DNA of 42,742 nt from Gammaproteobacteria bacterium (GTDB lineage Bacteria > Pseudomonadota > Gammaproteobacteria > Steroidobacterales > Rariloculaceae), in assembly GCA_029243585.1 (NCBI GenBank), contig JAQWRR010000035.1, positions 1-42,742 on the forward strand, in the 5' to 3' direction. The translations under genes and the position numbers were made by a program. Below, piece after piece: positions 19,835-24,770 of the stretch. Position 1 is the stretch's first letter; each line of letters begins with the position of its first letter. The notes beneath the pieces are model-generated. The model ran no database searches and was not told the origin of the DNA. It saw nothing but the letters and a program-made list of their open reading frames with translations.

Positions 19835-21934
19835 TTAACTTATGCTCACGGGCAATGCAATCTCAAATTTAACCCCTGTTCCATCTTTAAGGTCATTGGC
19901 TTCAACCTTTCCATTATGGTGTTCGGCTATAAGTCTCACGATATAGAGGCCATGACCTAGGTGTAGACTTTCACCACGTGTTTCACGCATGGACACTAAT
20001 GGATCGAAAAGTTGACCCCTTATTTTTTCAGGTAATAACGGCCCCTTGTTGGTCACAGATAATAAAATCTGTTCTTTTTTGCCGCTTAATAGAATATTAA
20101 TGGGACTGTTATCCTTGCTGAAACTGACAGCATTGTCGATGAGCTTGTCTAGCATTTGCTCTATGAGTTCACCAGATCCCTCAATATTTGTTCGTGGCGC
20201 AGTTTGTTCAAATCTGAAGCGATCTCCATAGATATCGCTATAGGCTTCTATACAACCAGGGAGTATTTCAAGCAGGTCAATAATCTCTAGTGTGGTATCG
20301 GATATTGTCTGTTTAGTTCGAGTAGCCACGCTCATTTTTTCTAGAGTAGTTTCTAGACGCTCTACACCTTTCCGCAGCCTTTCAAGATAAGGAACAAGTT
20401 TCTTATCTTTAGATTCATATTCTATGTGCTCCAGGGAGGAGGCAACTATGGAGAGAGGAGTACGAAGTTCATGAGAAAGTTTATCGTTTAGCGTGAATTG
20501 ATAATTTATATTTTTATCAGCTTGATCGAGCAGGCTAGTAAAACTTCGTGAAAGTTCACCTATTTCATCTCTTGCTTTGCTGTCTGGTAGATTAGGACGA
20601 ATCTCACCCTTTGGCCCAAGCGCACAGTCAGCCGCTTGAGCTAGTTTTTGCACTCTGATTGACAGCCATGTGGCATAGCTGAGCAGGGCAGCAAATACTA
20701 ACAAGGTGAGCACAAGGGTAGAGGTCATAAAACTTACCATTCTTGTATTATTCAGAGTTAGGATTGCTGAATTACTTTGTTCTAATATTACTGAGCCCAC
20801 CATTAATGCTGATCCGGATTCGGTGATGTTATAAATAGGAGAGGAGGCCATAACAATGGCACTTCCTTCAGTGCTATGCGAATACCATTCAGACTCTCCA
20901 TTTATCGCTGTGCGTAATGTTGTATCGGAAAGTTTGCCTCTGGCATGTGGCACTTCAAGCGTATCGTAACGAGGGTCGCTACGACGGATAATAAAGCTAT
21001 AAAAACTTTCACTAAAGCTTAAGGGTATATTATTAGCAGTATTTCCTAGAGTGTTAACAGACCCTCCATCAAATAATATCCAGCCCTCCGTATTTGCTAC
21101 ACGAAGGCGCCGATTTGGCTGATCTTGCTGGTCAAAGACCTGTCTAATAGCCGAAGCCAGCTGTATCTGTGGATAAAATAATTTTCCTGGTCGATCTTCG
21201 CCTTGCCATAATTCGAGCATCTGACTTGGTTCAATTAAGGTAGCCCAAGAATTTGCGTCATTTGCGATATCCTCTTCATTGGCATTGATAATGGCAACTC
21301 CGATACGTTTAATTGGCTGGCTACCTATTTGGAGGGGCATCAATGCTTCGATTGCATGTCCATTTTGGGTTTTTCGCCAAGAAAACTGAACTCGATCTTC
21401 GTAGTCACCTGATATAGCCCATTCTGGGGGTTCGCTACGCTGTGCCTGTTGTGATGCCGGATGAAGTAGTAGCGCAAGATTTTCACCACCCTCAATAAGA
21501 AGAATTATCTTATCCACGCTTGTTTCAACTGCGGTGAAGGGTTCAGAGGCCAGATTATTATCGCTAATGCTTAGAAATAAATTTAGATTGAATTCATATA
21601 AACCAAGCCAGAGCACTCCATTTTGGCCAACTTTAAAGTTGGCCATATTATCTGGTAGTTGCCAGTCCTGTCTGTTGCCATCTAATTCTGGCTGACTCTC
21701 CAATTTGTGTGCGTAAAGTGTAATACCAGAGTCAATATCGACATTGGTAGTCCAAGTTGTCTCTAGTATCTGACTGCCAAGAGTTTGAGCAATGGAAGTG
21801 GCTTCATTTCTAAGTAAAGTTTCTGTGGTGTCTCGCAAAGATCCTTCAGATCCTTGTACATATATATAGGTAACCCAAGGTAAAGATAGTGTTATTAATA
21901 TCCCTAAACCTAAAAGTTGGGTTCGAAGTGACAT
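19835..21934 (-). CDS. Membrane sensor histidine kinase, resembling the proteobacterial dedicated sortase system HK family
   Basis: 699 aa; N-terminal TM, large extracytoplasmic region, second TM, HAMP, LSHELRTPLSIVASSLEHIEYESK, HATPase motifs; operon with response regulator. Confidence 0.85.
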   Translation of the reverse strand: MSLRTQLLGLGILITLSLPWVTYIYVQGSEGSLRDTTETLLRNEATSIAQTLGSQILETTWTTNVDIDSGITLYAHKLESQPELDGNRQDWQLPDNMANFKVGQNGVLWLGLYEFNLNLFLSISDNNLASEPFTAVETSVDKIILLIEGGENLALLLHPASQQAQRSEPPEWAISGDYEDRVQFSWRKTQNGHAIEALMPLQIGSQPIKRIGVAIINANEEDIANDANSWATLIEPSQMLELWQGEDRPGKLFYPQIQLASAIRQVFDQQDQPNRRLRVANTEGWILFDGGSVNTLGNTANNIPLSFSESFYSFIIRRSDPRYDTLEVPHARGKLSDTTLRTAINGESEWYSHSTEGSAIVMASSPIYNITESGSALMVGSVILEQSNSAILTLNNTRMVSFMTSTLVLTLLVFAALLSYATWLSIRVQKLAQAADCALGPKGEIRPNLPDSKARDEIGELSRSFTSLLDQADKNINYQFTLNDKLSHELRTPLSIVASSLEHIEYESKDKKLVPYLERLRKGVERLETTLEKMSVATRTKQTISDTTLEIIDLLEILPGCIEAYSDIYGDRFRFEQTAPRTNIEGSGELIEQMLDKLIDNAVSFSKDNSPINILLSGKKEQILLSVTNKGPLLPEKIRGQLFDPLVSMRETRGESLHLGHGLYIVRLIAEHHNGKVEANDLKDGTGVKFEIALPVSIS

Positions 21935-21936
21935 GA

Positions 21937-22689
21937 TCAGTTTTCAGGTGTGGACTCTTCGCTGAGCCAGCGATAACCAGTACCATAGACAGTATTTATT
22001 GATTTAAAATTTGGGTCGATCTCGAGAAACTTTTTGCGAATTCGTTTGACTTGAGAAGTTACGCTATCTTCACTTATGTGTTCAGTTTGACGTGAGTCTT
22101 TAAGTAACTGAATCTTTTTCTTGACCCATCCAGGACGCTTAGCGAGAGCGTGCACTACCCAGAACTCGGTGACTGTGAAGGAAATAATACTGCCTTTCCA
22201 TGAAGCGATCATGCGGTCAAGATCAAGTCGTAAAAAACCAACCTCTATAAATTCAGCTTTTTCTGTATTATTTTGCAGAGCATCTACCATTCGTAATAGT
22301 GAGTAAACTCGGACAAGTAGATGATCAGCACTAATTGGCTTGACCAGGTAGTCATTAGCTCCTGAATCATATCCTCTTGCTTCGTCAAATTTACTATCTT
22401 TTGCCGTAAGGAAAATGATAGGTAGAGCAGGAAACATCACCCGTAAGTTGCGACAGAGATCAATACCGCCCCTAGGTTCATTGCCTAGGCCAATGTCGAT
22501 GATTACTAAATCTGGAAGTTGATTTTTAAAAGCCTCTTCTGCTTCCGTACGATAAGCATAGCCAACTGTTGAATAACCTTCTCTCGTCAGAGTGTCCAGG
22601 TAATTGTCTCTAAGTGAAGTCTCATCTTCGACTACTGCAATAAGTTTTCTCGGGCTCATATGATTCTCTGGCATCAATTGCAAAAGCAC
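21937..22689 (-). CDS. Response regulator with winged-helix DNA-binding domain (OmpR-like), partner of upstream HK
   Basis: LIAVVEDETSLRDNYLDTL...DLVIIDIGLG...PIIFLTAKDSKFDEARGYDSGANDYLVKPIS and C-terminal wHTH VTSQVKRIRKKF...VYGTGYRW; likely start M at 22659 (MSPRKLIAVV). Confidence 0.9.
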   Translation of the reverse strand: MLLQLMPENHMSPRKLIAVVEDETSLRDNYLDTLTREGYSTVGYAYRTEAEEAFKNQLPDLVIIDIGLGNEPRGGIDLCRNLRVMFPALPIIFLTAKDSKFDEARGYDSGANDYLVKPISADHLLVRVYSLLRMVDALQNNTEKAEFIEVGFLRLDLDRMIASWKGSIISFTVTEFWVVHALAKRPGWVKKKIQLLKDSRQTEHISEDSVTSQVKRIRKKFLEIDPNFKSINTVYGTGYRWLSEESTPEN

Positions 22690-22887: not shown

Positions 22888-23760
22888 CTAGGAGACCATC
22901 AGGCCTTTTAGTTTTTTGATGGCATTGGATTCAATTTGTCGAATACGCTCAGCAGACACACCATACTCAGAGGCCAGTTCATGCAGTGTTGCCTTTTTTT
23001 CAGCTAGCCATCGTCGAGCAACAATATCTCGGCTGCGATCATCTAGTTCAGAAACTGCAGTTGTCAAACGATTATGGTTATTTGATTGCCAATCTACATT
23101 TTCGACCGTCTCGGCAGGATCGCTATTTGGGCTCGGCAGGTATGAGGCAGGAGAAAAATCAAAATCGTCGTCATCTGTAGAACTTGCATCATAGGATATA
23201 TCACGCCCTGAAAGGCGCTGCTCCATTCGACTTACTTCTTCAATACTGACGCTAAGATCTTTTGCGATTGCTTCTCTTTCAGTGCTTGATAGCCATCCTA
23301 GATTCTTTTTTGCTTTTCTGAGATTGAAAAAAAGTTTTCTTTGGGCTTTTGTAGTAGCAACCTTAACTAGTCGCCAGTTTTTTAAAACATAATCATGTAT
23401 TTCTGCGCGTATCCAATGCACAGCAAATGACACTAGCCTTACACCAACATTCGGATCAAATCGCTTAACCGCTTTCATAAGCCCAACATTGCCTTCCTGG
23501 ATCAGGTCACCGAGCGGAAGCCCATATCCTGAGTAGCCACGTGCAATATGAACAACGAACCGCAGGTGAGATAGAACGAGTTCCTGAGCGGCATTAAGAT
23601 CATCTTCTGAGTAAAGCCGCTTTGCTAACTCAATTTCTTCTTCTTTTGTGAGGACAGACACAGCACTAACAGCCTGAACGTAGTGGTCCAAGCTTCCAAT
23701 AGATCCGTTAAGGATCAGTGTACTATCCCTAAGAGCAACCTCAGTAGTCACAACATTCAA
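22888..23760 (-). CDS. rpoH: RNA polymerase heat-shock sigma factor (sigma32)
   Basis: 290 aa; LVLSHLRFVVHIARGYSGYGLPLGDLIQEGNVGLMKAVKRFDP, TTKAQRKLFFNLRK (RpoH box); adjacent to ftsX. Confidence 0.95.
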   Translation of the reverse strand: MNVVTTEVALRDSTLILNGSIGSLDHYVQAVSAVSVLTKEEEIELAKRLYSEDDLNAAQELVLSHLRFVVHIARGYSGYGLPLGDLIQEGNVGLMKAVKRFDPNVGVRLVSFAVHWIRAEIHDYVLKNWRLVKVATTKAQRKLFFNLRKAKKNLGWLSSTEREAIAKDLSVSIEEVSRMEQRLSGRDISYDASSTDDDDFDFSPASYLPSPNSDPAETVENVDWQSNNHNRLTTAVSELDDRSRDIVARRWLAEKKATLHELASEYGVSAERIRQIESNAIKKLKGLMVS

Positions 23761-23783
23761 CCTCTTTAGATTACGAGGTTATT

Positions 23784-23810
23784 TTAGCACTCTCTATACT
23801 AGAGTGCTAA
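23784..23810. promoter_or_regulatory. CIRCE element (HrcA operator) upstream of rpoH
   Basis: TTAGCACTC-TCTATACTA-GAGTGCTAA: perfect 9-bp inverted repeat with 9-nt spacer, exactly the CIRCE consensus; 24-50 bp upstream of the rpoH start. Confidence 0.92.
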
Positions 23811-23852
23811 AATATTGATTAATAATTAATAAAAACCATAAAAATCAATAGT

Positions 23853-24770
23853 TTATTCTGGATCTGCATCGCGAAGATGCCGTATGGTAGCGATTGCGGC
23901 CCCTGCCCAGCCAAGAAGAGCGCCTGTCCCAACCAGCATTAAAGTTTCCTTAAAATTAAGCCCAATGACCCGATAACTTGAATCGTAGAGTTGAGCTAGC
24001 GCTCTTGCTGGTGAATTTACAAGACCGAGAGCTCCCCAAATAGTCAGGATAGCGACAATACTGCCACCAAAGCCATACCAAAACCCAGAGTAAAGAAATG
24101 GTCGACGAACATAGCCATTACTTCCACCTACAAGCTTAATAATCTCTATCTCATCTTGCCGATTATTTATTTCTAGCCGTATTGTGTTGCCTATGACTAT
24201 GATTACTCCAAATCCGAGTAATACGGTTACTATATCAACGACTCTCAGTACGAGATCCAGGATAGAGCGTAAACGGTCAACCCAAGCAGTATCTAATTGC
24301 ACCAAAGCAGTTTCTTCCATCCCCTCAAGTGCCATTATGAGCTCTGATATATCACTAGTTGATCCGCCTGTTGGACTGATGATTAGAGCATGAGGCAAAG
24401 GATTTGCCTGTAGTGTTTCCAATGCTTCTCCAAAACCAGAGTAATTCTGAAACTCAATTAATGCTTGGGCGCGGTTGATTAAAATAGCGCGACGCACATC
24501 GGTTCTTTGTTGAATGTTTTGTGCTAGTTCATTAGCACTTGTTTCATCAACTGTCATTTCCAGGTATATAGTAAAATCTGCTGCAGCATCCCAAGAACCG
24601 CTCATGGTGGAAATATTATTGACCATAACTTTTAGTCCAGCAGGTAATGCTAAAGCTATACCTATAACTACTATAGTCATCAAATTCCCTAGAGGCTGCT
24701 CAGTAATACGCGCAAGTGCATCAAAAAAATTTTTATAGTGCAAAGCTAAGTATCGATAGATAAAACTCAT
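23853..24770 (-). CDS. ftsX: Cell division ABC transporter permease-like protein FtsX
   Basis: FtsX-like membrane protein overlapping the ftsE stop; IRLEINNRQDEIEIIKLVGGSNGYVRRPFLYSG. Confidence 0.94.
   Translation of the reverse strand: MSFIYRYLALHYKNFFDALARITEQPLGNLMTIVVIGIALALPAGLKVMVNNISTMSGSWDAAADFTIYLEMTVDETSANELAQNIQQRTDVRRAILINRAQALIEFQNYSGFGEALETLQANPLPHALIISPTGGSTSDISELIMALEGMEETALVQLDTAWVDRLRSILDLVLRVVDIVTVLLGFGVIIVIGNTIRLEINNRQDEIEIIKLVGGSNGYVRRPFLYSGFWYGFGGSIVAILTIWGALGLVNSPARALAQLYDSSYRVIGLNFKETLMLVGTGALLGWAGAAIATIRHLRDADPE

Follow-up and report, generated by a model that had tools for sequence, protein, structure and literature searches.

The window analysed here is a stretch of 42,742 nucleotides that forms one contig of a metagenome assembly. 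On its minus strand the genes ftsY, ftsE and ftsX follow one another and are separated by a gap of approximately 100 nt from rpoH, the gene of the heat-shock sigma factor sigma-32. The identities of rpoH and ftsX were confirmed by the protein families TIGR02392 and TIGR00439. The gap contains a sequence of the form TTAGCACTC-N9-GAGTGCTAA, which the first-pass annotation of this DNA had described as a flawless CIRCE, and no mismatch to the consensus was found. The coordinates of this element and of the features around it are given in Table 1.

Table 1. Features of the rpoH upstream region, listed in the direction of rpoH transcription, and the second CIRCE of the genome
Feature	Position	Strand	Remarks
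ftsX	23853..24770	-	TIGR00439 above cut-off; upstream of rpoH, ends the ftsY-ftsE-ftsX run
Former place of the sigma-E -35 box	23820..23825	-	TTATTA here; GAACTT in relatives
-35-like hexamer TTAGCA	23805..23810	-	In the CIRCE left arm; weak, 4/6 matches to TTGACA; 18 nt from the -10
CIRCE operator, predicted HrcA binding site	23784..23810	.	TTAGCACTC-TAGTATAGA-GAGTGCTAA read on the rpoH strand; 0 mismatches; conserved in 52/55 relatives
Sigma-E -10 remnant	23799..23803	-	TCTAG here; TCTAA or TCnnA in relatives
Predicted extended -10 TGCTAAAAT, sigma-70 type	23781..23789	-	CIRCE right arm plus AAT; scan match
Shine-Dalgarno-like AAAGAGG	23761..23767	-	9 nt before GTG 23751
rpoH, heat-shock sigma factor sigma-32	22888..23751	-	TIGR02392 rpoH_proteo 405.2 bits, cut-off 323.1; N-terminus shared with relatives
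groESL CIRCE	C94:2316-2342		Directly after the sigma-32-like promoter CTTGAAA-N12-CCCCTATT

No other CIRCE with up to three mismatches occurs in the window. Dinucleotide shuffles gave an expectation of 0.01 for the window and the backwards controls gave 0, which excludes a chance origin of the site.

Two in-frame start codons were considered for rpoH, GTG at 23751 and TTG at 23760. The GTG coincides with the MTT... position at which the proteins of the relatives start, and is probably the start of the gene. The distance of 24-50 nt between CIRCE and start codon given by the first-pass annotation is correct if measured to the TTG but not for the GTG, upstream of which the CIRCE lies by 33-59 nt. 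With the GTG as the probable start, the operator ends 32 nt before rpoH.

hrcA and the distribution of the rpoH operator

The genome to which the window belongs is a 1.8-Mb metagenome assembly that is 77% complete. The first-pass annotation had proposed to look in it for hrcA and for further CIRCE sites, and both were found. The hrcA gene is present in two pieces: contig C6 ends with the N-terminal part, and the remainder starts the hrcA-grpE-dnaK run on contig C75, upstream of grpE and dnaK. This interruption is most likely an assembly gap; in the sister genome G002, which is 95% complete, hrcA is full-length. A genome-wide search allowing up to three mismatches identified exactly two CIRCEs: besides that at rpoH, there is one in the groESL promoter. 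The same search found no CIRCE at grpE or dnaK, which are preceded by the sigma-32-like promoters CTTGAAG-13-CCGCATAT and CTTGAAT-13-CCCCATTT, respectively. Autoregulation of rpoH by sigma-32 was considered and rejected, since no good sigma-32 match was found upstream of rpoH in the direction of the gene.

The conservation of the palindrome was analyzed in 58 related genomes, ranging from the same genus to the same order, which provided 55 rpoH loci with upstream DNA. These loci were picked by protein similarity, ignoring the motif. Across the order, 52 of the 55 have, ahead of rpoH, a CIRCE that departs from the consensus at no more than one position, within flanking DNA that has diverged. 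The remaining three loci belong to a single family, f12, which likewise contains neither hrcA nor any CIRCE; its members are the only three genomes with zero CIRCEs among the 58. In this family (G032, G045 and G056) sigma-E and RseB are missing too, and rpoH is kept. Exactly two CIRCEs with at most one mismatch were counted in 42 of the 58 relatives, and the location of one of them at groESL was confirmed for 16 genomes.

A sample of 370 genomes of the class was analyzed in the same respect. hrcA was detected in 113 of the 116 genomes with a CIRCE at rpoH versus 164 of the 254 others (Fisher p = 5e-14; Fisher p values ignore shared ancestry), and 116 is a lower bound because the strict pattern overlooks some sites. 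In the other 3 of these 116 genomes no hrcA was found, nor was it found in five draft genomes among the CIRCE-bearing relatives (G003, G010, G024, G033 and G039). These absences are likely to be assembly gaps.

Among named genomes, at least 119 loci combine a CIRCE with rpoH, many of them in beta- and gammaproteobacteria and some in Geobacteraceae and Desulfuromonadales. An RpoH box was present in the downstream frame in 105 among the 119 matches listed. By RpoH similarity, the named sequences nearest to that of the window include several Woeseiaceae assemblies, with approximately 64-65% identity; this makes the uncultured source a gammaproteobacterium that has no near relative among the named sequences compared. 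One of the relatives carries a perfect CIRCE (G021:C305:699-725) beside a second rpoH-like fragment of its assembly.

The first-pass annotation had suggested that rpoH is under HrcA repression, which would place the HrcA and sigma-32 heat-shock circuits in series. Given the presence of hrcA and the order-wide conservation of the palindrome, this proposal is well supported by the comparison of genomes.

Predicted promoter elements overlapping the operator

The three bases that follow the CIRCE read AAT, and because of them the right arm of the operator makes a predicted extended -10 element, TGCTAAAAT: its first six bases belong to the right arm and the AAT occupies positions +1 to +3. In a pool of 201 rpoH-CIRCE loci, used for all promoter analyses, the pattern TGnTAnnnT, with T at +3, is found in 190. 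The T at +3 occurs in 52/52 relatives and in none of the 16 groESL CIRCEs of the same relatives (p = 2e-17). In loci selected by the pattern, an invariant CIRCE core follows from the selection itself, and only the 52 relatives are free of this bias; for the flanks, every locus set is unbiased. Flank conservation was detected on the right side only, reaching 1.63 bits at +3 and no more than 0.08 bits at each of the positions -1 to -3. The invariance of the -35-like hexamer is not separable from HrcA binding.

A different promoter, TTAATC-18-TATAGA on the rpoH sense strand, had been put forward in the first-pass annotation. This candidate was discarded: its -10 reads TACAGA in the nearest sister, G002, and the conserved element is the extended -10.

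In the rpoH-CIRCE relatives a second promoter is predicted, of the sigma-E type, with the form GGAACTT-N16-TCnnA and its -10 inside the CIRCE. The boxes described for sigma-E promoters are GGAACTT and TCAAA (PMC4890791). Counted from the first CIRCE base, the start of GAAC was located at -15 in 98 of the 201 loci, at -16 in 20, at -14 in 11 and at -11 in 14; elsewhere it occurs in about one locus per position. TCnnA stands exactly 16 nt past GAACTT in 87 of the 98 loci with register -15 and in all 14 with register -11; none of those 98 has it at the shifted position. In the 14 loci, therefore, both sigma-E boxes are displaced by 4 nt with the 16-nt spacing unchanged; nine of them are burkholderial by record title (Variovorax, Acidovorax, Diaphorobacter, Rhodoferax, Ramlibacter and others). 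Since this spacing stays constant across a 4-nt shift versus the CIRCE, the pair of boxes is hard to explain other than as a promoter. The analysis of the 201 loci suggests that a sigma-E promoter and one of the extended -10 type, both predicted, are overlapped by the operator.

At four loci (L010, L100, L189 and L190) a GGAAC box was found at least 25 nt upstream of the CIRCE, so that the operator may be preceded, and not overlapped, by the sigma-E promoter there. The deltaproteobacterial loci of the pool (L040, L065 and L093) are without a GAAC box.

The AAT and TCnnA motifs stand next to the operator in almost every locus, as they would if they were extended HrcA contacts and not promoter elements. 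We find this scarcely credible: both motifs are one-sided, whereas HrcA recognises a palindrome, and both are absent from the groESL CIRCEs. Moreover, TCnnA shifts by 4 nt in step with the -35 box, and the sigma-E boxes decay where sigma-E has been lost.

Because TTATTA has replaced GAACTT, the sigma-E promoter is taken to be lost in this lineage. Neither rpoE nor rseB gave a match above cut-off in the window's genome or in G002; the E. coli control was positive in the RseB search and negative in the HrcA search. The absence of rpoE from an assembly that is 77% complete is weak evidence alone, but the 95% complete sister is also without it. Thus the sigma-E boxes, and apparently rpoE as well, were lost from the lineage; the CIRCE and the extended -10 stayed, and the latter is most likely the remaining rpoH promoter of the window.

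The same association was observed among the CIRCE-bearing relatives. GAAC is missing in 7 of 8 genomes without a detectable sigma-E system versus 3 of 44 with one (p = 7e-6), where the eight include the window's own genome and gene absence is uncertain in draft genomes. The exceptions to the correlation are G003, G009, G014 and G027. The losses fall at about four places on the RpoH tree, in which bootstrap support is not fully settled and row G012 is long. The CIRCE and the extended -10 (T at +3) are kept in all eight genomes without the system, and their survival after the loss of sigma-E indicates that the operator is under selection of its own. In G003 (L131), of a sister lineage, rpoE is present and both the GAAC box and the spacer TAA are already gone, as if promoter decay had run ahead of the loss of the sigma factor.

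Proposed control of sigma-32 by HrcA

In Bacillus subtilis and many other bacteria, the HrcA/CIRCE system classically controls the groESL and dnaK operons. In the unstressed cell GroEL keeps HrcA active; once unfolded protein titrates GroEL, HrcA leaves its operator. From the operator, the presence of hrcA, the conservation, and the promoter boxes with their registers, we infer that HrcA binds upstream of rpoH, occludes the promoter and is released under stress. We are confident that the best explanation of the palindrome, taken as a whole with occlusion and derepression, is that of an HrcA operator overlapping the rpoH core promoter.

HrcA probably represses rpoH through promoter blocking: because operator and core promoter overlap, HrcA bound to the CIRCE would exclude RNA polymerase. 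Transcription of rpoH would most likely start approximately 7 nt past TGCTAAAAT, with the weak -35 in the CIRCE left arm. Titration of GroEL by unfolded protein would release HrcA, and rpoH would be transcribed together with groESL. Sigma-32 would then switch on groESL, whose operator would also be free, and in addition grpE and dnaK via their own sigma-32 promoters. HrcA would repress groESL both directly and through sigma-32, in a coherent feed-forward loop, and its influence on grpE and dnaK, which have sigma-32-like promoters and no CIRCE, would be exerted only through sigma-32. In most relatives the operator also covers the sigma-E promoter, so that HrcA would set the limit to any rise of sigma-32 under envelope stress.

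The first-pass annotation had also considered a role of the palindrome in the rpoH transcript, as a hairpin in the 5' UTR. As a rival to a DNA operator, such a hairpin would be a stability element or thermosensor. A strong hairpin is predicted (121 nt, -38.4 kcal/mol, z = -4.9), and in Bacillus subtilis the CIRCE is reported to affect mRNA stability as well. For either type of promoter, transcription is predicted to begin within the CIRCE or past it, which would leave the full hairpin out of those transcripts, and the 52 unbiased relatives show no compensatory changes, with just five one-sided ones. Weakened by these two observations, the mRNA explanation appears very unlikely; in addition, the hairpin has no Rfam match, the conserved right flank is unpaired with the left flank, the palindrome fits the consensus of a protein-binding site, and hrcA is in the genome.

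HrcA might instead bind the CIRCE with little effect, if most rpoH mRNA came from an upstream promoter or from ftsX read-through, which the short ftsX-rpoH gap makes possible, and if sigma-32 were set post-transcriptionally. For the latter there is the precedent of E. coli, where translation and chaperone-dependent degradation largely determine how much sigma-32 is present. The near-perfect conservation of the fused operator and core promoter over many families implies selection on the effect of the operator, and we consider an operator of little consequence improbable.

Repression of rpoH by HrcA at the promoter may extend well beyond this lineage. We lean towards the view that in beta- and gammaproteobacteria that kept hrcA the rpoH promoter is a fused element, with one 27-bp HrcA operator laid over two promoters, one for sigma-E and one of the extended -10 sigma-70 type. 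Often having groESL and rpoH as its only targets, HrcA would gate the envelope-stress and the housekeeping input to the sigma-32 response, and the GroEL-sensing and DnaK-sensing heat-shock systems would form one hierarchical circuit.

Comparison with known systems

The textbook account of sigma-32 control comes from E. coli, a bacterium without HrcA. If the proposed arrangement is correct, many proteobacteria set sigma-32 transcription by a GroEL-responsive repressor on the rpoH promoter, and two heat-shock systems usually called parallel are linked, in a circuit absent from E. coli and other bacteria without HrcA. The architecture predicts both the feed-forward loop and the gate on the sigma-E input. 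It would also be a case of one operator sequence overlapped by elements for two sigma factors, within which a promoter slides by 4 nt.

The operator and its predicted repressor are those of the classical HrcA/CIRCE system, and groESL of this genome carries the operator too. The differences are that the target here is the sigma-32 gene itself and that hrcA-grpE-dnaK is without a CIRCE.

A CIRCE at rpoH is not unprecedented: one was predicted at -51 of rpoH in Geobacter sulfurreducens (Rodionov et al. 2004, PMC545781, Table 8). As in the window's genome, that site is a perfect match to the consensus, hrcA is present and a CIRCE also lies at groESL. Geobacter sulfurreducens differs in being a deltaproteobacterium whose hrcA-grpE-dnaKJ also has a CIRCE, and the paper describes no promoter overlap (PMC545781). 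In the open-access literature, a scope that leaves Permina and Gelfand 2003 outside, we found no description of a CIRCE at rpoH in beta- or gammaproteobacteria or of its fusion with sigma-E or extended -10 elements. The new part is the promoter-overlap architecture.

In Vibrio alginolyticus and Salmonella, rpoH is among the genes on which RpoE acts (PMC4890791, PMC4577112). The CIRCE-bearing relatives share the GGAACTT and TCAAA-type boxes of the enterobacterial and vibrio promoters but have the sigma-E -10 inside the CIRCE, and the lineage of the window has lost the boxes.

In Agrobacterium tumefaciens groESL is under RpoH and HrcA (Nakahigashi et al. 1999, as cited in PMC11764788), a dual control resembling that proposed here for groESL. 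The title, as cited there, speaks of independent roles, whereas an HrcA site on rpoH would link the two systems. In the groESL promoters of the relatives (L219-L234), a sigma-32-like CTTGAAA... CCCCTATTA ends at the first base of the CIRCE in nearly all 16, so that the groESL operator abuts the sigma-32 -10 box.

Two further observations were made next to rpoH. In its leader (23761-23781, minus strand) AACCUC can pair with GAGGUU and so cover the Shine-Dalgarno sequence; this hairpin is not kept in the sister G002, may therefore be due to chance, and was rejected as an element. Beside rpoH (19835-22689, minus strand) lie genes for a histidine kinase and a response regulator, scoring 399 bits with TIGR03785 and 282 bits with TIGR03787, below the curated cut-offs of 612 and 336, and resembling the proteobacterial dedicated sortase two-component pair.
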